DNA of 64,000 nucleotides from Blepharisma japonicum (lineage: Eukaryota; Ciliophora; Heterotrichea; Heterotrichida; Blepharismidae). The stretch spans positions 310,001-374,000 of the forward strand of contig CATKHK010000039.1 of NCBI GenBank assembly GCA_949751835.1. Reading direction: 5' to 3'. Below are positions 22,925 to 35,408 of the stretch, one piece after another; the stretch's first letter is position 1; each line of letters starts with the position of its first letter. Both the position numbers and the translations under genes were made by a program. The notes under the pieces are model-generated. The model saw only the letters and a program-made list of their open reading frames with translations, was not told where the DNA came from and made no database searches.

Positions 22925-23725
22925 CTAAAGACTTTGAGCATTTGCATTTCTGATCAAATATGGATCTGATTTATAAATAAAAGCAATTCCACAAAAAACA
23001 CAGCAAAATACACAAAAGAACACTAAAAGCAACTTTTTTGATGTCTTAGCCTGCTTACCGCTAAATGATTGATGGGTATCCAATTTTTCATCCATTGTAT
23101 TACATTTTTCCAATATTTTGAAACTCATAGTTTCCATCTCTTTGAATTTGGCATCAAAAGTGTCTATTACAACTAATTCCGAAGCTTTTATTATATTTTG
23201 AGTTTCACCTATGCTGTTTTCCAAGGCTGTTACGTTCCGATTTCAGGCTTCTAAGGTGTTTTCTGAATAAATCAAGCTGATGACATTTGTGCTATCTGAA
23301 ACTTCAACTATATCTTGTTTTATTGTATTAATTGCTTCTTTACCAGAATATGAGAGTGCTTCATAAAGCTCCTTATTGTTGTTTTTCAACTTATCTAGAT
23401 CAACAAGACTAGACTTAGCATTTGTTAAAATATCTAAGCTATCATCAATTTTTTTAATGTATTTCTGAAAGTTTTCACCAATTTCATTCATTCTTTTTCC
23501 ATGTTGTTCTATGAGATCTTTTTTGAATGAGTTTAATTCCTTATCCTTTTTTTTTAAGAAATTTTTGTATGATTCTACAAATCTTGGCTTTGGCTTAGTA
23601 TCAATAACATCTGCAGAAGAAGGAACATTAGACGAGCAGCTACTCTTCTTAAAATAATAATGAGGATTTGAGGAGGATTTCTTTTTAGCGCAAGGATTAT
23701 TTGCTTTAGATTTCAATTCTTCCAT
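22925..23725 (-). CDS. Small coiled-coil protein with C-terminal membrane anchor (array family S, intact copy)
   Basis: 266 residues when TGA at 23243-23245 is read as Trp. It begins MEELKSKANNPCAKKKSSS, followed by a Ser-rich stretch, a long predicted coiled coil (residues ~50-230) and one hydrophobic segment near the end (LLLVFFCVFCCVFCGIAFIY, ~235-254) with a short tail. The layout suggests a tail-anchored or single-span protein. The piece YEALSYSGKEAINTIKQDI resembles YQALLLPGKEAVNKIKPHI of family L, so S and L share a common segment and may share ancestry or a partner. No known family. It is the only S copy with its membrane span in frame. Confidence 0.75.
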
Positions 23726-24051
23726 TTATATTACTTAATCATGAATAATATCAGGAATATTTAGCTCGAAAAGTTTTAAAATATGGGCTGCATAAAACAA
23801 TTTTTTCTTTTAAGAAATATTCAAAAGTTGAGTTTTGTATTATATAAGACAGCTTTCATCTTCATTATATATTAATAAAAATAAATAGTTAAGTTTAAAA
23901 TGAGGATGAATAGATTTATGCAATGCGAAAGGAAAAATATTTAAAAATATAATCTAATGTCTAGGAACTCTAATTTCTATCCCAATGAAACAACATACCT
24001 AAAAAGTAATAATTAAAAATGGCCAGTATTCTAATTTATACTGTTAACTTA

Positions 24052-24267
24052 ACCTTTTTTACTATCCTCTTCTTTCAAGCTCATCGTTAATTTTTTTGAA
24101 GGAGTGCGCTGAAAGCGGCTATTTGATCTAGGACTATACAATAGAAAATTGTCTTTTTCATTATTCATAAGCTTTTCGCTTGCTCTTATTGGTATTGCTG
24201 ATTTTTCACTAGATGTATAGCTTGGAATATGCTTTATCGTAGGGGTTTGTGCATTTCTTTCAAAGTT
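24052..24267 (-). pseudogene. C-terminal fragment of array family L
   Basis: Nearly identical to the 3' end of the gene at 25547-27427: the same pieces IPSYTSSEKSAIP and RFQRTPSKKL are encoded, ending in TAA. Homology stops abruptly at ~24267, where it joins sequence related to the tail of family S. It has no start of its own, so it is a truncated copy left by duplication and deletion. Confidence 0.85.
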
Positions 24268-25207
24268 TTAAGAAAAAAATATATAAAATAATTCAAATTA
24301 AACATTTTCTTTTGATAAATACATTCTTAAAGTTATTAATTATATGATAATTAATTACTTTCGATTAATGCTAACGGCTTTGAGCAATTGCATTTCTGCT
24401 CATTTGTTGTGGTGATTTATAAGTAAAAGCGATCACAAAATAAACCAGCAAAATGCACAGAAGAACTTTAAATAGCAAAGCATGCTGTCTTCTATGTGTT
24501 TGATTATCTCACACATGCATATCCATTTCATTATTTGAATTATAAATTTCAGGTTTTTAAGAACTTAATTTATACAATTTAATTGGAATTTAAATATCTC
24601 ATAAAATTCATCTTTCGATATTAGCTGAGATAGCCTAATCCAAAAGGAAGCTCAGATTATAATCTTTTTGAAATTGTTTTTGTCTGAATTTCATATTTGG
24701 CATCAATAATTTCCTTTTCATTTTCATCCAGTCAGACTTTTATTTCTAATGCATAGGCATCTCAAATGTATTCTAATAAATATCTTCTATATGAGGCTCT
24801 AATCATATTCATATCATCCTTGATTTTATTAATTGCTTCTTGATTAGGATTCAAAAGCGCTTCGCAGAGCTCATTAATGCTGTTTTTGACTTATTTAAGC
24901 TCTGATCAGTCTTTCAAATGTCTTCCATAGCATGCTCCCCAATTTTCTCCTCTCTTTTTGCATGCTTTTCTATTAAATCTTTTTGGTCAGAGTTTAATTC
25001 TTCACTCTTGCTTTCTAATTCCTTTTTATATGATTCTACAAATATTGGTTTTGACTCAATATCAGCGGCGCCTGCATGTGGCATTTAAGAAAAAGGAAAA
25101 TTAAATGAAGAGCCATTCTTCTCAGGGATATAAGAATTTGAGCAGGATTTATTTTTAATGTGTGGATTATTGCTGCTCATATCTGTATTAGGTTTCAATT
25201 TTTCCAT
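24268..25207 (-). pseudogene. Decayed copy of array family S
   Basis: Starts with an ATG at 25205-25207 and reads MEKLKPNTDMSSNNP, clearly related to the intact gene at 22925-23725. It then meets an in-frame TAA after ~40 codons and later shifts frame; the membrane-span segment near 24360-24480 is still recognisable as DNA but not as one frame. Confidence 0.8.
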
Positions 25208-25546
25208 TTATATTGACTTAATGATACATAATTTCAGGAATATTTAACTCAAAAAATCTTTTAACATATAAGTTATTCAAAACAATCATTTTTATTTTAA
25301 GAAATATTCAAATTAGATTTTGTATTAAATAAGACAGCTTTTCATCGTAATTATTTATAATAAAAACAAATAGTTCAGTTAAAATAGGGATTAATAGATT
25401 CATGTAATACGAAAGGAAAAAGATTATAAAATATTAATTTTAATGTCTAGGAACTCTAATTTTCACCTTAATGAAACATCATACCTAAAATGTAATAATT
25501 AAAAAATGGCAAGTATTTAGTTGAAATTCTAATTTATACTGTTAAC
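25208..25546. other. Spacer of the tandem array
   Basis: About 340 non-coding bases. They resemble the spacers at 23726-24050, 28616-28950 and 31888-32220, showing that the duplication units include the intergenic DNA. Confidence 0.7.
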
Positions 25547-27427
25547 TTAACCTTTTTTGTTATCCTCTTCTTTCAAGCTCATCATTAATTTTTTTGAAGG
25601 AGTGCGCTGAAAACGGCTATTTGATCTAGGACTATACAATAGTAAATTGTCTTTTTCATTATTCATAAGCTTTTCGCTTGCTCTTACTGGTATTGCTGAT
25701 TTTTCACTAGATGTATAGCTTGGAATATGCTTTACCGTAGGGGTTTGTGCATTTCTGTCAAAGTTTTGAGAATTCATATCAATACTTTTAATATCACGAG
25801 GAGATAAAAACTTATTAGAGCTCGAATGGATTTTTCGCCTAATTTCCATTTCTAAACGTCTTATATCGTAATCTCCTAGTTTATTACCATGATGGCAATA
25901 AAAGTTACTTTGCAGGCTACCTCTTTCCATATAGTAATTTATATGACAATCAAGACAGTGACTTTTAGAGCATCCTGATAAATGATAAATATTTCCGTGA
26001 TTTGAACTACTGCATTCGCTAGCTGCAATATCTATTTCAAGGCCTATTGAGTTATTAAGCAACGAACTTTTCTCACTAGATGAAGTTAATAAACTATTTG
26101 GAAGCGTCTTGCTCTTTTCCGAAGTATTCAATTTTGCATCACTTTTTATATCTTTTTTTAAGCAAGATGCTTTTTTTGATTCAGTTTGATTAAGAACTGT
26201 TTTATCATCAATTTTGCTGGCTTTTGGCTTGAATTCTTTTTCAATTTCAGTAACTTTTTTTTCCAATTTAGATATTTGAGTTTTGGATATATTTTCTATA
26301 TCTTGATATTTTGTCTCATAACTTGACAGCTTTTTGTTGATTTTTGATATATCTTCAACTAAATTACTAATATCAGTGCAGCTGTTTTTCTTCAATAAAA
26401 AATTATTAAATTCATATTTTATCTTATCTAATTCAGAATCAACTTTCTCAGATAATTTTTTTTCTAATTCATCAACCTTTCGTTTGCAATTTTCATTTAA
26501 ATTTTGAATATTGTTGATACAGCGGGATAAACCACCATTAAAATCTGAAATTTTTGCTTTTATTTCATCAGCTTCTTTTTTATTTTCTGTATTCTTATTG
26601 AGAAACTGCTGTTCTATTTCAGTTAATCTTTTTTCTAGTTTATCAGTTTTTTGTTCAAAACTTCCATTAAAATTTTGAATACAGCTTATACGCTGAGATA
26701 TATCAGCATTAAAATCGGTAAGTTTTTCTTTTATTTCTTTTATTTCATTAATTTCTTTTCCATTTTCTCTAATTTTTGATTCTAAGGTTTTCATTTTTGT
26801 ATCAATAGATTTTTTTAATAAAATTTCTAAGTCTTTAACCATATCGTGACACATTTTTTCAGTTTTTTCAAGGCTTAATTCTAAAAGGATATCAAATCTT
26901 TTGACCATTTGCTTCTCAACAATTGATTCTATATCAACTTCAGCGGATAATTTGCTTAGAATGTTTTGATAATCTGGAATTTTACATATATGAGGCTTGA
27001 TTTTGTTAACAGCTTCTTTTCCAGGAAGTAAAAGTGCTTGATAAAAGGGATCTTTTGTATCTATTTGAATCTTGCATAAATTGTTAAGATTTTTTAACAT
27101 TTTTTGATCCAATTTGATGCCATTACTTATCTGCTTAAGGGGTTCTGGAATTACTTCGTTAATTTTTGAAATCCGACAACCAGCTTTTTCTAAGATTGTA
27201 TTTTTTAGAGATAATAGCTCTTTTTGATGGTTTGCTAAGAACGATTTAACAGACTCTACAGTTTTTGGATCACACACAGCATAAAGATCTAATACTTGAT
27301 GTTTACTTGTTTCAGGAAGCATATGAGAACCAAGATGTGTAAGGCAAATATAAATATTTGATGCGCAATTGCATATGAATACAGGAGCCATTCGGCATCC
27401 TTCTATAGCACACTTCGGCTCAGCCAT
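25547..27427 (-). CDS. Zinc-finger coiled-coil protein (array family L, copy A)
   Basis: 626 residues. It opens MAEPKCAIEGC with a compact cluster C-x4-C-x7-C-x-C-x6-C-x2-H-x3-H (residues 6-35) resembling a B-box-type zinc site. A conserved helical segment YQALLLPGKEAVNKI follows (~130), then ~250 residues of heptad-rich coiled coil (~180-410). A second Cys/His cluster near residue 475 has spacing C-x4-H-x4-H-x3-C-x3-HC-x2-C, then FYCHHG. The tail holds the conserved NAQTPTVKHIPSY and SEKSAIPVR. All of this is kept in the two other intact copies. The order zinc site, coiled coil, second zinc site recalls TRIM-type organisation, but no RING or enzyme domain is visible. Role unknown. Confidence 0.85.
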   Translation of the reverse strand: MAEPKCAIEGCRMAPVFICNCASNIYICLTHLGSHMLPETSKHQVLDLYAVCDPKTVESVKSFLANHQKELLSLKNTILEKAGCRISKINEVIPEPLKQISNGIKLDQKMLKNLNNLCKIQIDTKDPFYQALLLPGKEAVNKIKPHICKIPDYQNILSKLSAEVDIESIVEKQMVKRFDILLELSLEKTEKMCHDMVKDLEILLKKSIDTKMKTLESKIRENGKEINEIKEIKEKLTDFNADISQRISCIQNFNGSFEQKTDKLEKRLTEIEQQFLNKNTENKKEADEIKAKISDFNGGLSRCINNIQNLNENCKRKVDELEKKLSEKVDSELDKIKYEFNNFLLKKNSCTDISNLVEDISKINKKLSSYETKYQDIENISKTQISKLEKKVTEIEKEFKPKASKIDDKTVLNQTESKKASCLKKDIKSDAKLNTSEKSKTLPNSLLTSSSEKSSLLNNSIGLEIDIAASECSSSNHGNIYHLSGCSKSHCLDCHINYYMERGSLQSNFYCHHGNKLGDYDIRRLEMEIRRKIHSSSNKFLSPRDIKSIDMNSQNFDRNAQTPTVKHIPSYTSSEKSAIPVRASEKLMNNEKDNLLLYSPRSNSRFQRTPSKKLMMSLKEEDNKKG

Positions 27428-27587
27428 TATTTAAATAGTTTAAATTTCCGTTAACTAGAATAAAGTAAAAAAGAGGTCTAAATAAAAATTTGATCAACAT
27501 TTATATATTAAAATTGTAGAATCAGGACTTATATTATTTATTTAAATTTTAAAAACTCAAATTTTATATTTATTTATGAATTAATGG

Positions 27588-27960
27588 AAATTTCATTGCC
27601 AAAAGTCTATTAAATTACTTAAATAGTGATTGCATGAATAATAAATTCAGAAGCTGGGCTGACATCAATGCCAATACTGATAAATTCATCTCTTAGATAA
27701 TTCTCAATTTTTTTAACCTTAAATCCGCATTCTGTAAGTAAATTCTGACTTTCTTCTAAAGTTCTAATAGTTCTAGTGTCTTCATTTCATGAACTGCTGT
27801 ATGTAAGTAATATTTTGAGTGTTCCATTTCAAACTTACCTATCCATTTAAACTTGTCTCCGGCTTGTAAAACTTTTCTTGCATTTGAAATGATAGTTTTG
27901 GCATAATTATTGTCCAATTCGCATAAAGAATGCTTAATAATTATACAACCATAGTCTAGG
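27588..27960 (-). pseudogene. Remnant of O-methyltransferase 3' end (array unit 3)
   Basis: About 370 bases closely match the 3' third of the methyltransferase gene at 34383-35408 (regions for EMEDTRTIRTLEE and ASEFIIHAV are readable) but contain single-base shifts, and the match ends near 27960 in the middle of the gene. Confidence 0.85.
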
Positions 27961-27964
27961 TATA

Positions 27965-28615
27965 TTTTATTATAATATTTTTGAAATCATTTCTCTCTGA
28001 TTTTTATCGTTAGCAATAAAAGTGGCAACTACAACTAATTCCATAGCTTTTTATTACATTTTGAGTTTCATCCATGCAGTTTTCAAGGTTTTTAGTTTTG
28101 GATTTAAGGTATTTGCAATCACTTCTATGCAATTTCCTGAGTAAAGCAAGCTGATGACATTTTTGCTATCTAAAACTTCAAAAATTCTGGCTTAATTTTA
28201 TTAATTGCTTCTTTATCAGAATTCCAGATGCTAATAAACCTCATTATTGCTGTTTTTAAAATTTTATTTAGATTAGCAAGATCAGATTTAGCCTTTTATA
28301 AAATACCTAAGCTGTCATCAATTTTCTACAGGTATTTTATAAGGTGTCCCTCAATTTCACCCATTCTTTTTCTATGTTGTTTATAAGATTTTTTTGGCCG
28401 ATTTCTAATATTTCTAAATTTCTTTCTATAAACGTTTGGAGCAATTCTACATTTATGGATTTTGGCTCAGCATAAACGGTTCCTACACATGGCCTTTTCA
28501 GAAAAAGAACTTTAAATGAGCAACCACTCTTCTTGGGAAGATAAGAGTTTGAGGAGGATTTCTTTTAGCTCGAGGGTTATTGGTGATCATATCTATATTA
28601 GGTTTCAATTTGCAT
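27965..28615 (-). pseudogene. Decayed copy of array family S (unit 2)
   Basis: DNA related to the family S genes, with pieces such as the coding for VVATFIANDK-like and LDILTNAK-like segments still recognisable. The start codon region is eroded (CATTTATATTGATTTAAT without the usual MEKLK start in frame) and several stops and shifts break the frame. The membrane-span part is missing. Confidence 0.75.
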
Positions 28616-28952
28616 TTATATTGATTTAATGATGAATAAGATTAGGGATATTTAGCTTGAAGAGTCTTTTAGCATATGAGCTGTTCAAAACAATTATATT
28701 TAAATAAATATTCAAACTAAGAATTTTGTATTAAATAAGACTGTTTTTCATGCTATTATTTATCAATAAAAACGAATAGCTCATTTAAAAAAAAGGATGA
28801 ATAGATTCATGCAATGTGAAAGGAAAAAGACTGTAAAAATATTAATCTGTCCAAGAACTCATATTTCAAACTTAATGAAGCATTCTACCTAAAGAAACCT
28901 AATATTAAAAGATGGCTAGTATATAGTTAAATTTCTATTTTATTTTGCTAAT

Positions 28953-30626
28953 TTAACCTTTTTTCTTTTCTGGTTCATGAAAACTCATAAATTGCTTTTT
29001 TGAAATAGATCTAGGGCTAGTGAATTTTGAATTGCCTTCTGTAAAATACATGCTTTGATCACTTGATCTTATTGGTATTGCTGATTTTTCATTAGATTCA
29101 TAGCGTGGAATATATTTTGTCGTAGGAGTTTGTGCATTTCTATCAAATGTTTGGGGAATCTTCTCAATTCTTTTAGCAAAATTGTCAGCACGAGCAGAAG
29201 AAAGTTTATTTAGGTTCCAATTTTTTTTCCGCTCAAATTCTTCTTCTAGATTTCTTATATCAGATGCTAATAATCTTTTACCATGATGGCAATAAAAGTT
29301 ATTTTGCCAGCGATTTATCGTTCAATAATTTATAAGGCATTCACTACAATGATTTTCGGAACATCCTGATATATGAGAACTAATGTCGTGCTTTGGGTTA
29401 CTGCATTCATTAGCTGCATAATCTACTTCAAGAGCTGCTTCTCCTTTAAGAACCAGGCTTTTTTCAACAGGAGAATTGATTAAAAAATTTGGCTGCGTTT
29501 GACTCTTCATCAAAGGATTTACTTTGAAAATATTACTTTCGTGAGATTCTGTTTTTGATTCTGCTTGGTTTGAAACAGTTTTATCATCAGCTCTTTGGGC
29601 TTTTGGCCTTAATTCTTTTTCAATTTCATTAATTTTTTGGCTCAAAGTTTCATTTTTATTCTTAGATTCAACTATCTCAGATAATTTTTTTTCTATCTCG
29701 TTGATTTTTTGTTTACAATATTCATCCAAGCCTCCAATATTGTCAATAAGAAAAGATAAATCACAATTAAAATTTGAAATATTTGCTTTTATTTCATTAA
29801 TTTCTTTGTTATTTTCTGCATCTTTTTCGAAAATCTGCTTTAATTCTTTTTCGAATTCATCATATTTTTGTTTGCAACATTGATTTGAATTTTGAATATA
29901 TCTTTTGTGCTGAGATATATCACAACTAATATCGGCAAATTTTGTTTTTATTTCGTTAATTTCTCTTATATTTTCTAATTCTAGAGCTTTAATTCTTGCA
30001 TCAGTGGATTTTTTTAACGAAATTTCTAAGTCTTTAACCTTATCGCTACAGATTTTTTCTGTTTTTTCATGGTATTGTTTTAAAAAAATATCAAACTTTT
30101 TGTTTATTTGTTTATCAACAATAGATTCTATATCAACTTCAGTGAATAATTTGCAAAGAATGTCTTGATTATCTGAAATTGTAAATATAAGCGGCTTAAT
30201 TTTGTTAATAGCCGCTTCTCCAGGAAGTAAAAGTGCTTGATAAAAGGGATCGTTTGTATCTTTTTGGATCTTACATAAATTATTAAGATCATTTAGCCAT
30301 TTATTAGCCAGCTTAAAGGAACCACTTAGCTGCTTAAGGTATTTTTGAACCGTTGCATGTATTTTTGAAACTTTATAGGTAGATTTTTCTAAGATCATAT
30401 TTTTTACAGATGATGCTTCTTCTGCGTAGTTCTCTAAGAATTCTCTAACAGATTCTACAGCTTCAAAATTAGGCTTAGTGTCAAGATTTGATATATGATG
30501 TCTACTTGGTTCAAGCATTATATGAGGGCCAAGATGCGTAATACAAATATAAATATTTGATTTGCAATCGCACACGTATGCAGGAGTATCTTGGCACCCT
30601 TCTTTACAACACTTAGGCTCAGCCAT
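28953..30626 (-). CDS. Zinc-finger coiled-coil protein (array family L, copy B)
   Basis: 557 residues with TGA at 29322-29324 read as Trp, just after the second zinc cluster. Start MAEPKCCKEGC with the same C-x4-C-x7-C-x-C-x6-C-x2-H-x3-H spacing as copy A. The conserved FYQALLLPGEAAINKIKP segment, the coiled coil, the second cluster (ECSNPKHDISSHISGCSENH) and the tail NAQTPTTKYIPRYESNEK are all present. Relative to copy A it is shorter by ~70 residues, mainly in the coiled-coil middle. Reading TGA as stop would remove the conserved tail, so this gene is a good internal proof of the code. Confidence 0.85.
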
Positions 30627-30759
30627 TTTTAATATCTCATTCTATAATTTTATGCTAATTTAAGTTTCGGAATATGAAGAACCTGCTAAAATTGTAGAAT
30701 CATGGCTCTTCTATAATTTATTCAAAATTATAATTCTTCAAATTTTATAGAGGCATTTT

Positions 30760-30866
30760 ATTCATTCCAAAACGTCTATTAAATTACTTAAATAGCGAAT
30801 GCATGAATAATAAATTAAGAAGCTGGACTGACTTCCATAGCAATATGAATGAATTCGTCTCTTACA
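30760..30866 (-). pseudogene. Remnant of O-methyltransferase 3' end (array unit 2)
   Basis: About 100 bases match the last codons and trailer of the methyltransferase at 34383-35408. The match breaks off at ~30866, exactly where the hairpin at 30870-30910 begins. Confidence 0.8.
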
Positions 30867-30869
30867 TCT

Positions 30870-30910
30870 CATCCTTGATCGAACCGCAATCCATTGCCCG
30901 ATCAAGGATG
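30870..30910. repeat. GC-rich perfect hairpin (12-bp stem, 17-nt loop)
   Basis: CATCCTTGATCG (30870-30881) is the exact reverse complement of CGATCAAGGATG (30899-30910). It stands out from the AT-rich surroundings and sits at the broken end of the methyltransferase remnant. Confidence 0.9.
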
Positions 30911-31296
30911 GAGTTTTTTATATATAGTTTAATTTTAATTAAGTTAAAAAATCTAAGAAACAAATATTATATAAAAATAATTCAAATTAAACGATTTCTT
31001 TTGGTAAATAAGTTCTTAAACTTATTAATTATGATAATTAATTACTTCTGATTAATGCTAATAGCTTTTAGCAATTGCATTTCAGCTCAAATGTGATGGT
31101 AATTTATAATAAAAGCAACTACAAAAAAAAATACAGCAAAATACTCAAAAGAATACTAAAAACAACTTTCTTAGTATCTTAGCCTGCTTACTGCTAAATA
31201 ATTGAGAATCTTTTATATGAGTATTCAATTTCCATTAATTTCATTAGAGAAATTTTGCATCATACTATAAAAAATCATTTTGTTATCCATTGTTTG

Positions 31297-31887
31297 CTAG
31301 TTCCTGATCTGATAATATTTTGAAAAACATAGCTGTTTGACTTTTATATTTGGCAGAACATTTTCAATTACAGTTAATTCCACAGCTTTTATTATATTTT
31401 GAGTTTCATTCATGCAGTTTTCCAAGGTATTTAGCCTTGGATTTAAGGCATTGCAATCGATTCTATGTCATTTCCTGAATAATAAAGAAAGCTGATTGTC
31501 TTTTTGCGTTGCAAAGCTCATTATTGTTGTTTTCAACTTATTTATATCAGTAAGATCATATTTAGCCTTTTCTAAAATTCCTAAGCTGTCAATTTTTTTT
31601 AGGGATTTACTATGTTTTGCCTCAATTTTACTAATTATTTCTCTAGTTTGCTCTATGAGATCTTTTTTGGTAGATTCTAATTCTTCTTTATTATCTTCTA
31701 TGGACTTTTTGAGCGATTCTACATTTTTTGAATTTGGCTCAGCATAAATGGCACCTGCATATGGCCTTTCAGAAAAAAGAACATTAAATGAGCAGCTACT
31801 CTTCTTATGATGAGAATTTGAGGAGTATTTCTTTTTAGCTTGAGGATTATTGCTGATCATATCTGCATTAGGTTTCAATTTTTCCAT
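31297..31887 (-). pseudogene. Truncated copy of array family S (unit 1)
   Basis: Open for 196 codons (TGA at 31468-31470 read as Trp) from MEKLKPNADMISNNPQ to a TAG at 31297-31299. The coiled-coil part is related to the intact gene at 22925-23725, but the frame ends before the membrane span. DNA matching the span lies downstream (~31060-31160), out of frame. It may still make a soluble protein, so pseudogene is an inference. Confidence 0.65.
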
Positions 31888-32221
31888 TTATATTGAATTA
31901 ATGATGCATAAGATTAGGAATATTTAGCACTAAAAGTCTTTAACATGTGAGCAAATGAAAACAATTATTTTCTTTTAAGAAAATATTCAAAATAGAATTT
32001 TGCATTAGATAAGACAGTTTTTTGTCTTTATTTTTTCAACCAAAACAAATAATTCAATTCAAAATAGGATAAATGCATTCATACAGGACAAAAAAAGTCT
32101 ATAGAAATATTAATCTGATATCCAAGAATTCACATTTACATCTTAATAAAGCATCCTACCTAATGAAACTTTAATAATTAAAAGATGTCATTTAGTTGAA
32201 TTTCTATTTTATATTTTTAAC

Positions 32222-34078
32222 TTAACCTTTTTTCTTTTCTCCTTCGTTAAAAATGAAATATGATTTTTTTGAAGGAGTAATCTCTTTACGGCTGTCGATT
32301 TTAGGGTTGTACAATCCTGGATAGACTTTTTCAGAATGCATGTTTACCTCGCTTGATCTTATTGGTATTGCTGATTTTTCATTAGATGCATAGTGTGGAA
32401 TATATTTTGCCGTAGGAGTTTGCGCATTTCTTTCAAATGTTTGGGGAATCTTTTCAATTCTTTTCCCTAAATTGTCAGCACGAGGAGAATAAAAATCTTT
32501 TGAGCTCACATATTTTTTTGATCTTAATTCCATTTCTTCGAGCCGTTTTATATCAAGGGCTAATAATTTTGCACCGTGATGGCAATAAAAGTTATTTTGC
32601 TGGCCCTTTAGTTTGCTATAATAACTTAAAAGGCATTCACCACAATGACTTTTGATGCATCCTGATATATGATAACTTTTATCATGCTTTAGGTTACTGC
32701 ATTTAATAGCTGGATTTTCTATTGCAAGGACTAATTCGCTATTAAGCAACGAGCTTTTCTCTTTAGGATAAGTAAATGATATATTTGGTTCCGTCTGACT
32801 CTTCTCCAAAGTATTTATTCTTGTATTAATGATGGCATTTTTATTTAAGTGAGATGCTGCTTTTGATTCAACTTGATTTGCAACAGTTTTATCATCAGCT
32901 TTTTGGGCTTTTGGCTTGGCCTCTGTTTTAATTTCATTAATTTTTTGGCTCAAAGTAGATATTTCTTTTTTAAATTTATTCTCTATATCTTGATATTTTT
33001 CTTGATAAGTAGAAAGTATTTTGTTTATTTTTGATGTTTCTATCCCTAAATTACTAATTTCTGCAAAGCCCTCCTTCAATAAAAATTCGTTTTCACTTTT
33101 TATCTTAACTAATTTAGAGTCAACTTTCTCAGATAATTTTTTTTCTATCTCATTGATTTTTTGTTTACAATTTTCATTTAAATCTTGGATTTTGTTAATA
33201 TGAAGAGATCAATCACAATTAAAATTTGAAATATTTGCTTTTATTTCATTAATTTCTTTTTTATTTTCTGCATCTTCATTGAGAATCTGCTGTGCAATTT
33301 CAGTAAATCTTTTTTCGAGTTCATCATAGTTTTGTTTGAAATTTTGAAAATATTTTTTATGCTGAGATATATCATAATTAATATTAGTAAATTTTGCTTT
33401 TATTTCATTAATTTCTTTTATATTTTCTGATTCTAGAGCTTTAATTCTTGTATCAGTGGATTTTTTTAACGAAATTTCTAAGTCTTTAACCTTATCGCTA
33501 CAGATTTTTTCTGTGTTTTTAAGGTATTGTTTTAAAAAAATATCAAACTTTTGGTTTATTTGTTTATCAACAATAGATTCTATATCAACTTCAGTGAATA
33601 ATTTGCAAAGAATGTCTTGATTATCTGAAATTGTAAATATAAGTGGCTTAATTTTGTTAATAGCAGCTTCTCTAGAAAGTAAAAGTGCTTGATAAAAGGG
33701 ATCGTTTGTATCTCTTTGGATCTTGCGTAAATTATTAAGATCATTTAGTCATTTATTAGCAAGCTTAAAGCCATAATTTAGCTGCTTAAGGTATTCTTGA
33801 ATCGTTGTATGTATTTTTGAAACTTTATAGCTAGATTTTTCTAAGATTGTATTTTTTACAGATGATGCCTCTCCTAGGTAGTTCTCTAAGAACGATCTAA
33901 CAGATCGTACAGTTTCTAAATTAGGCTTAGCGCCAAGTTTTAATACATTATGCATACTTTTTTTATCCATTATATGAGGGCCAACATGCTGAGTACAAAT
34001 ATAAATACTTGATGCACAATCGCATATGTATTTAGGAACATCATTGCATCTTTCTTGAAAACACTTAGGCTGAGCCAT
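32222..34078 (-). CDS. Zinc-finger coiled-coil protein (array family L, copy C)
   Basis: 618 residues in one frame with TGA read as Trp at 33749-33751 and near 33210. Start MAQPKCFQERC keeps the N-terminal C-x4-C-x7-C-x-C-x6-C-x2-H-x3-H cluster. The helical segment FYQALLLSREAAINKI, the coiled coil and the second cluster KCSNLKHDKSYHISGCIKSH are conserved, as are NAQTPTAKYIPHYASNEK and SAIPIRSSE near the end. In the DNA between the L genes, large blocks are nearly identical to copy B, showing recent duplication or gene conversion. Confidence 0.85.
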
Positions 34079-34208
34079 TATTAATATCTCGTTCTATGCT
34101 TATGCTAATTTAAATTTCGGAATATAAAGAACCTCTAATTAAGTATAAAGCATACGAGAAAAAGAATTTAGGTGCTTAAATAAAAACTGAATTATACATA
34201 AATATAAA

Positions 34209-34251
34209 ACTTTCCCGAGGATGGCGCCATTCCGCGCATCCTCGGGAAAGT
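34209..34251. repeat. GC-rich perfect hairpin (15-bp stem, 13-nt loop)
   Basis: ACTTTCCCGAGGATG (34209-34223) is the exact reverse complement of CATCCTCGGGAAAGT (34237-34251). It lies in the spacer between the methyltransferase stop and the start of L copy C, in otherwise very AT-rich DNA. Confidence 0.92.
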
Positions 34252-34382
34252 AGAATATATTAAATTTGTAGAATCATGGCTTTATAATTTATTCGAAATT
34301 ATAAACTTTCACATTTAATAGAGGCATTTTATTTGTCTACAGGTCAATAATATTTTCATTCCAAAACGTCTATTAAATTTAC

Positions 34383-35408
34383 TTAAATAGCGACTGCATG
34401 TATAATGAATTCAGAAGCTGGGCTGACTTCCATATCAATATGGATGAATTCGTCTCTTAGAGAATTCTCAATTTTTTCAACTTTAAACCCACATTCTGTA
34501 AGCAAGCTTTGGCTTTCTTCCAAAGTCCTAATAGTTCTGGTGTCTTCCATTTCATGAATTATTGTATGTAGGTAATGTTTTGAGTGTTCCACCGCAAACT
34601 TGTCCATCCATTTAAACTTGCCTCCGACTTGCAACGCTTTTCTTGCATTTGAAATAATAGTCTTGGCATAATTATTGTCCCACTCGCATAGAGAATGCTT
34701 AATAATTATGCAATCATAGTCTGTAGGTAAATCTCCAAGCATATCTCCATTAATAGCCATAATCCTCTCTTGCAAATTATGCTCATAAATGTTGTTTAGA
34801 ATCATATCAACAACTTCATATTTCTCCAAAACTGCTCCAGTGATGTGAGGATATTGCTCTACCAAATATATCATAAAATTTCCTTCCCCACCTGCAAGCT
34901 CCAGAACTTTTTGGCACTCCCCTAGTCCAATATCCCTTAATCTTGAAATAAAAAGATTTTCTATTGCATTGACACCATCTCTATAAATTGGAAGAATTTC
35001 TCTATTACTCATAATTCCACTAAAATAATCACAGCCAAAATGTACATCATGACAGAATGCTTCACGTTTTATGGATTCTGGGTAACTACATAAATATTCA
35101 TACTTATAAGGCCATAAGAGAAGTTTCATAGATTTACTTAAGGAGTCATCTGTTAAAGCAGCAGATGATGGACTGTTGGACCATTGCTGGGTTTGCTCAT
35201 TATAAGAAAAATAGCCGTGAACTGAGAGAACTTTTAGCATGTGGTCAAGCTTGGCTTGGTTAGCAAATGTGAGCTCTGACAATTCAGAGAGAGTTTTTGG
35301 CTCCAAAAGAAGGGTGGGGAGATTTAAATCCAGCGCCGTGAAGAGCATGATCCCAAAGATAGGTGCGTAAGCATCCTTGTAGATCTTGGAAAGAATGGCT
35401 GGATTCAT
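34383..35408 (-). CDS. SAM-dependent O-methyltransferase (COMT/ASMT type)
   Basis: 341 residues, typical for this class. An N-terminal winged-helix dimerisation part (ALDLNLPTLLLEPKTLSELS) is followed by a Rossmann domain with motif I VLELAGGEGNFMIYL (~residue 170), a following acidic residue for SAM ribose, and KHSLCEWDNNYAKTII, the position of the catalytic HDW of plant COMTs. Here the pattern is H-x3-E-W, so the base may differ. Such enzymes methylate hydroxyls of small aromatics. The substrate is unknown; a link to quinone pigments of Blepharisma would be guesswork. It is the head of the tandem array and the only intact copy. Confidence 0.85.
   Translation of the reverse strand: MNPAILSKIYKDAYAPIFGIMLFTALDLNLPTLLLEPKTLSELSELTFANQAKLDHMLKVLSVHGYFSYNEQTQQWSNSPSSAALTDDSLSKSMKLLLWPYKYEYLCSYPESIKREAFCHDVHFGCDYFSGIMSNREILPIYRDGVNAIENLFISRLRDIGLGECQKVLELAGGEGNFMIYLVEQYPHITGAVLEKYEVVDMILNNIYEHNLQERIMAINGDMLGDLPTDYDCIIIKHSLCEWDNNYAKTIISNARKALQVGGKFKWMDKFAVEHSKHYLHTIIHEMEDTRTIRTLEESQSLLTECGFKVEKIENSLRDEFIHIDMEVSPASEFIIHAVAI

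Follow-up and report, generated by a model that had tools for sequence, protein, structure and literature searches.

The TRIM plan is composed of RING, B-box, coiled coil and a variable C-terminal domain, and one account describes this structure as metazoan-specific (PMC2533329). For ciliates, a Tetrahymena study reports that leucine-rich-repeat genes display mostly purifying Ka/Ks values, that whole-gene tandem duplication yields just ~1.6% of genes, and that young genes are pericentromeric and subtelomeric (PMC6564038). Here we analyzed a 64-kb stretch of a Blepharisma contig (the window), which carries an array of three genes named MT (methyltransferase), L (large) and S.

Self-BLAST of 21-37 kb showed that the array genes are all on the minus strand, head to tail, in blocks reaching 2.5 kb, and the rest of the 64-kb window gave no match to the array blocks. 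Moreover, a genome search using 26.0-28.0 kb, which passes over very common words, returned 5 matches, all of them within the array; homologous copies on one strand with DNA-level matches elsewhere in the genome absent identify a tandem array. The limits given in an earlier note on this DNA, 22925-35408, are correct and run from the final base of the intact S, counting its stop codon, to the first base of MT. The features, from the MT end, are as follows.

34383..35408, minus strand: MT, intact gene of 341 aa, class II O-methyltransferase-like (translation, PF00891)
32222..34078, minus strand: L3, intact, 618 aa, two TGA read as Trp (open frame)
33950-34063, minus strand: N-terminal finger of L3
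31060..31887, minus strand: S3, broken S; 196 codons open (TGA=Trp), then TAA, with the anchor region in another frame
30779..30868, minus strand: MT 3' fragment, MT residues 316-341
28953..30626, minus strand: L2, intact, 557 aa, one TGA read as Trp (open frame)
30498-30611, minus strand: N-terminal finger of L2
30000..30270, minus strand: conversion-like tract of L2, limits approximate, 94-99% identical to L3 (~33460-33720) vs 84% for the whole gene
27970..28626, minus strand: S2, broken S without its 3' end, ending beside an MT fragment
27619..27965, minus strand: MT 3' fragment, MT residues 228-341, one-base indel
25547..27427, minus strand: L1, intact, 626 aa (open frame)
27299..27412, minus strand: L1 N-terminal finger, C6 C11 C19 C21 C28 H31 H35 H43
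25889..26014, minus strand: L1 C-terminal Cys/His motif, C472 H477 H482 C486 H490 C491 C494 C511 H512 H513
24330..25206, minus strand: S1, broken S, with a premature stop and frameshifts
24052..24274, minus strand: L 3' fragment, highly similar to the L1 3' end (84-98% per 50-base step, mostly 94-98%)
22925..23725, minus strand: S0, the sole intact S, 266 aa, one TGA read as Trp
22976..23032, minus strand: C-terminal hydrophobic segment of S0, residues 232-250 (mean Kyte-Doolittle 3.07)

Reading TGA as Trp gives one open frame each for L1, L2 and L3, while the standard code would break L2 (one in-frame TGA) and L3 (two) and was rejected; the recoded reading is supported because one L3 TGA is aligned with a non-TGA Trp of L2. 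Together with the telomere repeat CCCTAACA, this code is an indication of Blepharisma. With these translations the earlier count of L intact three times, MT once and S once was borne out. The description of the array as four MT-L-S units holds for the head-to-tail order but not for the numbers, which are uneven: three intact L and one L 3' fragment, four S of which three are broken, and one intact MT with two 5'-truncated (3') fragments. Likewise, decay of the neighbours of L is true of S, whereas the extra MT copies were lost through truncation at two different points, not by slow decay.

MT shares with the class II O-methyltransferases the PF00891 domain, scoring 55.4 bits against a cut-off of 22.3, and keeps the sequence ELAGGEGN, which we take to be the SAM-binding motif. 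At the position of the HDW-type motif of those enzymes, however, MT has CEW in a 12-row alignment, thus replacing the His that is presumably their catalytic residue. The nearest solved chain is the Plu4894 mutant 8bij (E 3e-16), and the nearest relative in the genome is a small tandem pair on C4 (52-53%).

All 18 putative Cys/His ligands of L are invariant in L1-L3, against 2 of the 15 other L1 Cys/His in ungapped columns (p 6e-7), a partly circular comparison since the ten C-terminal ligands were picked as invariant, so that only the eight finger ligands form an independent test; on these the conserved cysteine pattern noticed earlier stands. Neither L nor its finger or C-terminus found a significant match in Pfam, PDB sequences or PDB folds: the weak Pfam matches of L1 were of coiled-coil type and below cut-off (best 6e-4), and a PDB profile search found a designed coiled coil as its best match (E 0.022) and a TRIM63 coiled-coil fragment at E 0.81. 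Helices are predicted at residues 54-83 and 94-122 of the N-terminal module, whose model, built from four window sequences, is of moderate quality (pLDDT 65.6, pTM 0.48, finger part below 60); no use can be made of the C-terminal model (pLDDT 47.5). The C-terminal Cys/His motif was seen solely in this array, the single outside match of the L C-terminus (E 0.6) being taken as spurious, as it lies in a frame judged RCC1-like. The L copies also exchange sequence by conversion-like tracts, between L2 and L3 and between the end of L1 and the L fragment, each reached in 0 of 5000 permutations.

S has no finger and retains the helical module, which scores 54.8 bits with the profile of the parent family described below and has its best match outside the array at E 8e-6. 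S0 and L1-3 form one clade with support 99/93 in a 50-row tree, which on sequence grounds shows S as a finger-less paralogue of L, with the qualification that the S0 branch is long (1.21) and such joins may be false. The hydrophobic segment of S0 is followed by 16 residues, a tail-anchor layout, and S is therefore predicted to be a tail-anchored membrane protein. Residues 215-265 were matched solely by S itself and the broken S3 (29 rows; the C97 row extends to residue 246), and no transmembrane anchor was seen in 8 reads of ~750-800 bases from other family members. A fixed L:S partnership is weakened by S being intact only once.

The N-terminal module of L (finger and helical module, residues 1 to ~192) is found in at least 150 places in the genome, all 150 of those scored passing E <= 1e-4, out of 585 first-look candidates. 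L1 fits the family profile over these residues with 164 bits, the profile itself including L1-3, and a single-protein search with L1 gave 57 matches, ~47 of them outside the array (best E 2.7e-12). The earlier view of an unrecognised family is thus right insofar as Pfam and PDB offer no match, but the N-terminal half of L recurs across the genome and S is its paralogue. A literature search covering titles and abstract openings of openly available papers returned no description of this family. In most rows the finger spacing is C-x4-C-x7-C-x-C-x6/7-C-x2-H-x3-H-x7/8-H; its ligands are invariant in 16 of 16 hand-chosen rows, and at least three rows of the wider alignment depart from them (L045, L057, L058). 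The C-terminal regions of family members are of Kelch, TPR, ZZ or RBR-like type, and the front end of one RBR-like-ended member is 65-75% identical to those of 14 others, which belong to a group that is mostly of Kelch type.

Family places are enriched at contig starts, 45 of 150 lying within 10 kb where 7.4 were expected, compared with a control set of methyltransferase places (22 of 28 rows) in which the figure was 1 of 22; the either-end version of this test is biased, as contigs were mostly included through family matches and some extents were interpolated. The telomere repeat of the genome, CCCTAACA, was found at none of ten examined contig ends, two of which fall inside family genes, and among the ends listed 2 of 13 telomeric ones have a family member within 20 kb. 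Assembly breaks in repeats explain the enrichment equally, and we do not claim a subtelomeric placement.

The array is probably the product of ordinary tandem duplication in the Blepharisma somatic genome with gene conversion, L being retained as an adaptor. A family member with finger and helical module would have duplicated locally to give L and S, L carrying the second Cys/His motif and tail, and S being without the finger and with a predicted membrane anchor at its C-terminus. Unequal exchange may then have multiplied the MT-L-S block; in the extra blocks MT would have been cut at its two points and S broken in three copies, while selection for frame and conversion among copies would have kept L intact in three. 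We infer that L acts as a dimeric adaptor without enzymatic activity: through the helical module it would pair either with a second L or with S, its sister, which would hold the complex at a membrane, and both Cys/His modules, presumably by binding zinc, would bind partners. Additional L copies would give a higher dose and allow drift of the partner-binding surfaces.

The rival that survives best sees the L copies as forming a small repertoire for recognition in defence, self/non-self discrimination or mating, selected for diversity, as suggested for other expanded lineage-specific ciliate families. The finger omega of 1.25, a dN/dS near 1 in linker and tail for L2-L3 around a fixed Cys/His pattern, the mixing of segments by conversion-like tracts, and the size of a parent family with many binding-repeat ends are all consistent with it. 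The finger fit is however no better than omega 1 (lnL -419.37 vs -419.50, a gain of 0.13), so diversity selection, which the earlier note had considered, is not borne out, and the sample is three copies from one genome; we regard this reading as rather unlikely.

Less probable still is neutral birth and death, in which L2 or L3 of a young array is intact by chance so far. Pairwise dN/dS for L2-L3 is 1.00 (0.75-1.48) and a free-branch fit gives 0.51 for L1, 0.87 for L2 and 1.06 for L3, so that amino-acid constraint is weak in the younger pair, one copy of which is possibly being lost. The ratios of this pair are those that neutrality would predict, and S and MT copies of equal age are broken. 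Against the neutral reading, all three copies keep an open L frame: no in-frame TAA or TAG was seen where neutrality predicts on average 18, 9 and 8 in L1, L2 and L3, and neutral simulation with fitted branch lengths gave 0 of 400 stop-free runs for every L gene, or 1 and 6 of 400 on the L2 and L3 branches with substitutions halved. All 23 pairwise L indels (single events being shared among pairs) are multiples of 3 compared with 8 of 57 in L-S spacers, and for L2-L3 the figures are 8 of 8 compared with 1 of 11 in the corresponding spacer. The overall L dN/dS is 0.69 by maximum likelihood, a fit that beats dN/dS = 1 by 2dlnL 8.9. The selection on L proposed earlier is thus supported in part, by the frames and by the copies taken together, while the near-1 ratio named as a sign against it does appear in the younger pair.

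That the array is an error of assembly, with reads duplicated or collapsed, can practically be dismissed: members of the parent family do sit at assembly breaks, but the nine blocks longer than 450 bases have distinct breakpoints and are just 71-87% identical, a divergence of 13-29% that is far beyond sequencing error and excludes duplicated reads, and the array lies inside a 406-kb contig, ~61 kb from the nearer end.

The array is itself a normal birth-and-death cluster, and what makes it of interest is the parent family to which it leads. This is a very large heterotrich family whose finger lacks a useful Pfam or PDB match and is followed by a helical module and by ends that can be exchanged, one of them ubiquitin-ligase-like. 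Like TRIM and TRIM-like proteins, it joins a Cys/His finger, ~150 residues of predicted helix and an exchangeable C-terminal region. It differs in ligand spacing from the B-boxes of the Blepharisma genome and does not have the N-terminal RING, none being detected by Pfam before the finger in L, which starts five residues ahead of it. The Pfam B-box (PF00643) gave nothing for L1-3 at E <= 1 and was absent among the best 25 of 32 Pfam families for 18 members, the rest being weaker than 0.14; none of 77 B-box places comes closer than 700 bp to any of 164 family places, and hhalign of the family against same-genome B-boxes gave a probability of 0.9% (14 rows, one of them, L095, in the wrong frame). 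B-box membership was rejected on these results. Foldseek with the N-terminal model had a best E of 0.74, with a TRIM5 B-box/coiled-coil construct at rank 7 (E 1.2). The RING score of the L C-terminus was equalled by 3 of 100 column shuffles and by 11 of 60 with Cys/His columns fixed, thus a RING there has no support beyond Cys/His spacing.

It is conceivable, though we hold it only tentatively, that the family is a TRIM-like Blepharisma superfamily outside the animal TRIM lineage, its constant finger-helix front end being swapped among Kelch, TPR, ZZ and RBR ubiquitin-ligase ends. It would then serve as a repertoire, evolving fast, of recognition proteins or ubiquitin adaptors, with the L/S array as a membrane-tethered branch. 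Should it work like TRIMs or like plant and fungal recognition repertoires, it would be an independent invention of such a plan in a single-celled predator. From the Tetrahymena leucine-rich-repeat expansion the Blepharisma family differs in its protein modules, and no placement of young genes like that in Tetrahymena is claimed for it; both are large, fast-evolving, lineage-specific ciliate families with ectopic recombination.

Along the minus strand (35408 to 22925) the array runs MT, L3, broken S3, an MT 3' fragment, L2, broken S2, an MT 3' fragment, L1, broken S1, an L 3' fragment and S0, where MT is an intact O-methyltransferase-like gene, L1-L3 are intact zinc-finger/coiled-coil genes and S0 is the intact S. 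This order, together with nine self-matches longer than 450 bases (71-87% identity) in the self-comparison of the array, bears out the tandem amplification proposed in the earlier note. As a tandem cluster the array itself is ordinary; what is new is the parent family, whose members share the N-terminal module (Cys/His finger plus helical part) of L.

22925-35408, minus strand: MT-L-S array
34383-35408, minus strand: MT
34202-34258: hairpin between MT and L3
30869-30912: second hairpin, of other sequence, exactly at the S3-side/MT-fragment junction

The hairpin beside MT (about 42 bases, identical 14-base arms, 13-14-base loop) recurs at G000:C2:120675-120716 and G000:C68:790-831 of the same genome, with a lone arm at C43:18525, and is a candidate short dispersed palindromic element or RNA hairpin. 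The second was spotted by eye and is not among the hairpins listed computationally.

The genome holding the window (45.2 Mb, 224 contigs, the window lying in contig 39) carries CCCTAACA arrays at some contig ends and reads TGA as Trp in L2, L3 and S0, as the Blepharisma genetic code does, so that it appears to be a Blepharisma somatic genome. The CCCTAACA repeat is reported for Blepharisma in PMC9942806.

The retention of L had been taken to suggest selection on its copy number or diversity; selection for the reading frame proved right, while the case for diversity is weak. Frame keeping is more telling than dN/dS: neutral simulation gave on average 18, 9 and 8 in-frame TAA/TAG codons for L1, L2 and L3, with 0/400 stop-free runs per gene (0, 1 and 6 of 400 at half the substitutions), and indels of 3n length made up 23/23 in L, 8/57 in the L-S spacers and 38/76 in S (pairwise counts, with events shared between pairs). 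Counting dN/dS was 0.72 for both L1-L2 (0.55-0.93) and L1-L3 (0.57-0.88), and 1.00 (0.75-1.48) for L2-L3. A codon ML model over the 550 codons shared by the three genes yielded a single omega of 0.69 (lnL -4348.31 vs -4352.74 at omega 1; p ~0.003 by our own reckoning); free branches gave 0.51, 0.87 and 1.06 for L1, L2 and L3 (lnL -4345.22; p ~0.045 vs one omega). By region, the C-terminal motif had an omega of 0.44 (2dlnL vs 1 of 4.8) and the remaining C-terminal parts one of 0.61 (5.1); the helical and coiled-coil parts had 0.71-0.73 (2.0 and 1.2), and the finger reached 1.25, with a 2dlnL of 0.3. All 18 putative ligands are invariant across the three L vs 2 of 15 other Cys/His, a partly circular comparison as the ten C-terminal ligands were picked for being invariant.

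Copies have also exchanged sequence. L2 and L3 share 94-99% identity across bases 360-630 of their alignment vs 66-93% in the remaining 90-base steps scored, and the L 3' fragment matches the L1 end at 94-98% in four 50-base steps, the spacer after it at 70-92%; none of 5000 permutations reached either tract. The L2-L3 tract is homogenisation, not constraint, since synonymous divergence drops there too, to 0.079 for the helical part vs 0.12-0.30 for the other five parts.

S0 scored 54.8 bits against the family profile and grouped with L1-L3 at 99/93 support in a 50-row tree, for which the tool warns of a long branch; L and S therefore appear to be a pair left by an older duplication, in which S is without the finger and has a C-terminal hydrophobic segment. 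MT is probably a bystander, because both further copies of it have lost their 5' part, with breakpoints that differ (residues 228 and 316), and the His of its HDW-type motif, which has a role in methyltransferase catalysis, is changed to Cys (CEW). This change also makes ordinary catalysis doubtful. HDW is present in several other methyltransferases of the genome; the two nearest paralogues of MT, on contig C4, have IDW and TGW, so a small group has lost the usual His.

The parent family is large. L1 as query gave at least 57 matches (70 scored among 370 first-look candidates), and the N-terminal 192 residues of a Kelch-type relative gave 585 candidates, of which all 150 scored matched (weakest 3.4e-32); the family thus occupies at least 150 places, with stops in some of the 150 matched frames. 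Among 46 distinct frames from fetched loci, many of them partial, BLAST to five representative ends assigned 24 Kelch-type, 9 TPR, 1 TPR plus ZZ and 1 RBR, with 4 of none of these and 7 short. Some example Kelch and TPR ends were supported by Pfam above cut-off; the ZZ match (19.3 bits against 21.4) and a RING-type match (20.5 against 25.2) fell below it. We read the latter as a putative whole RBR because of its Cys pattern, aided by 48 similar places. Member L062 (G000:C97:27612-28130 and downstream) shares 65-75% identity in its N-terminal module with 14 members of a group that is mostly Kelch-type, but its own end comprises several RING-like modules plus an RBR-like region, pointing to a swap of ends; the RBR-like part occurs at a second C97 place with 92% identity. 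TPR ends of L020, L028 and L029 consist of ~68-residue units; comparing 3-4 of them from each gene gave 71-88% identity inside the gene, which suggests ongoing repeat turnover. Members are strongly over-represented at contig ends (e.g. those of C34 and C128), and two contig ends stop within a family gene, without telomere repeat; the family is therefore probably arranged in arrays at which the assembly broke.

In the genome search, the C-terminal motif of L turned up in this array only, and its likeness to RING1 fails shuffle controls. The finger of L resembles a B-box in the order of its ligand pairs, but this identity was rejected: Pfam gave no B-box in L1-L3 at E <= 1 and none among the matches listed for 18 family members, none of the genome's 77 B-box matches (71 above cut-off) lies near the 164 family places, hhalign of the finger against 14 B-box rows of the genome (one wrongly framed) gave no support, and the finger profile had no match in PDB. 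A model of the N-terminal module has two long helices at moderate confidence, and its seventh-ranked Foldseek match is a TRIM5 B-box/coiled-coil construct (E 1.2), a hint only. Parts, homology and constraint are established for the L/S array; beyond these, L might act as an adaptor pairing through its helices with itself and with S, its Cys/His modules serving as binding surfaces and S as a membrane hook, a mechanism proposed from the TRIM-like layout.
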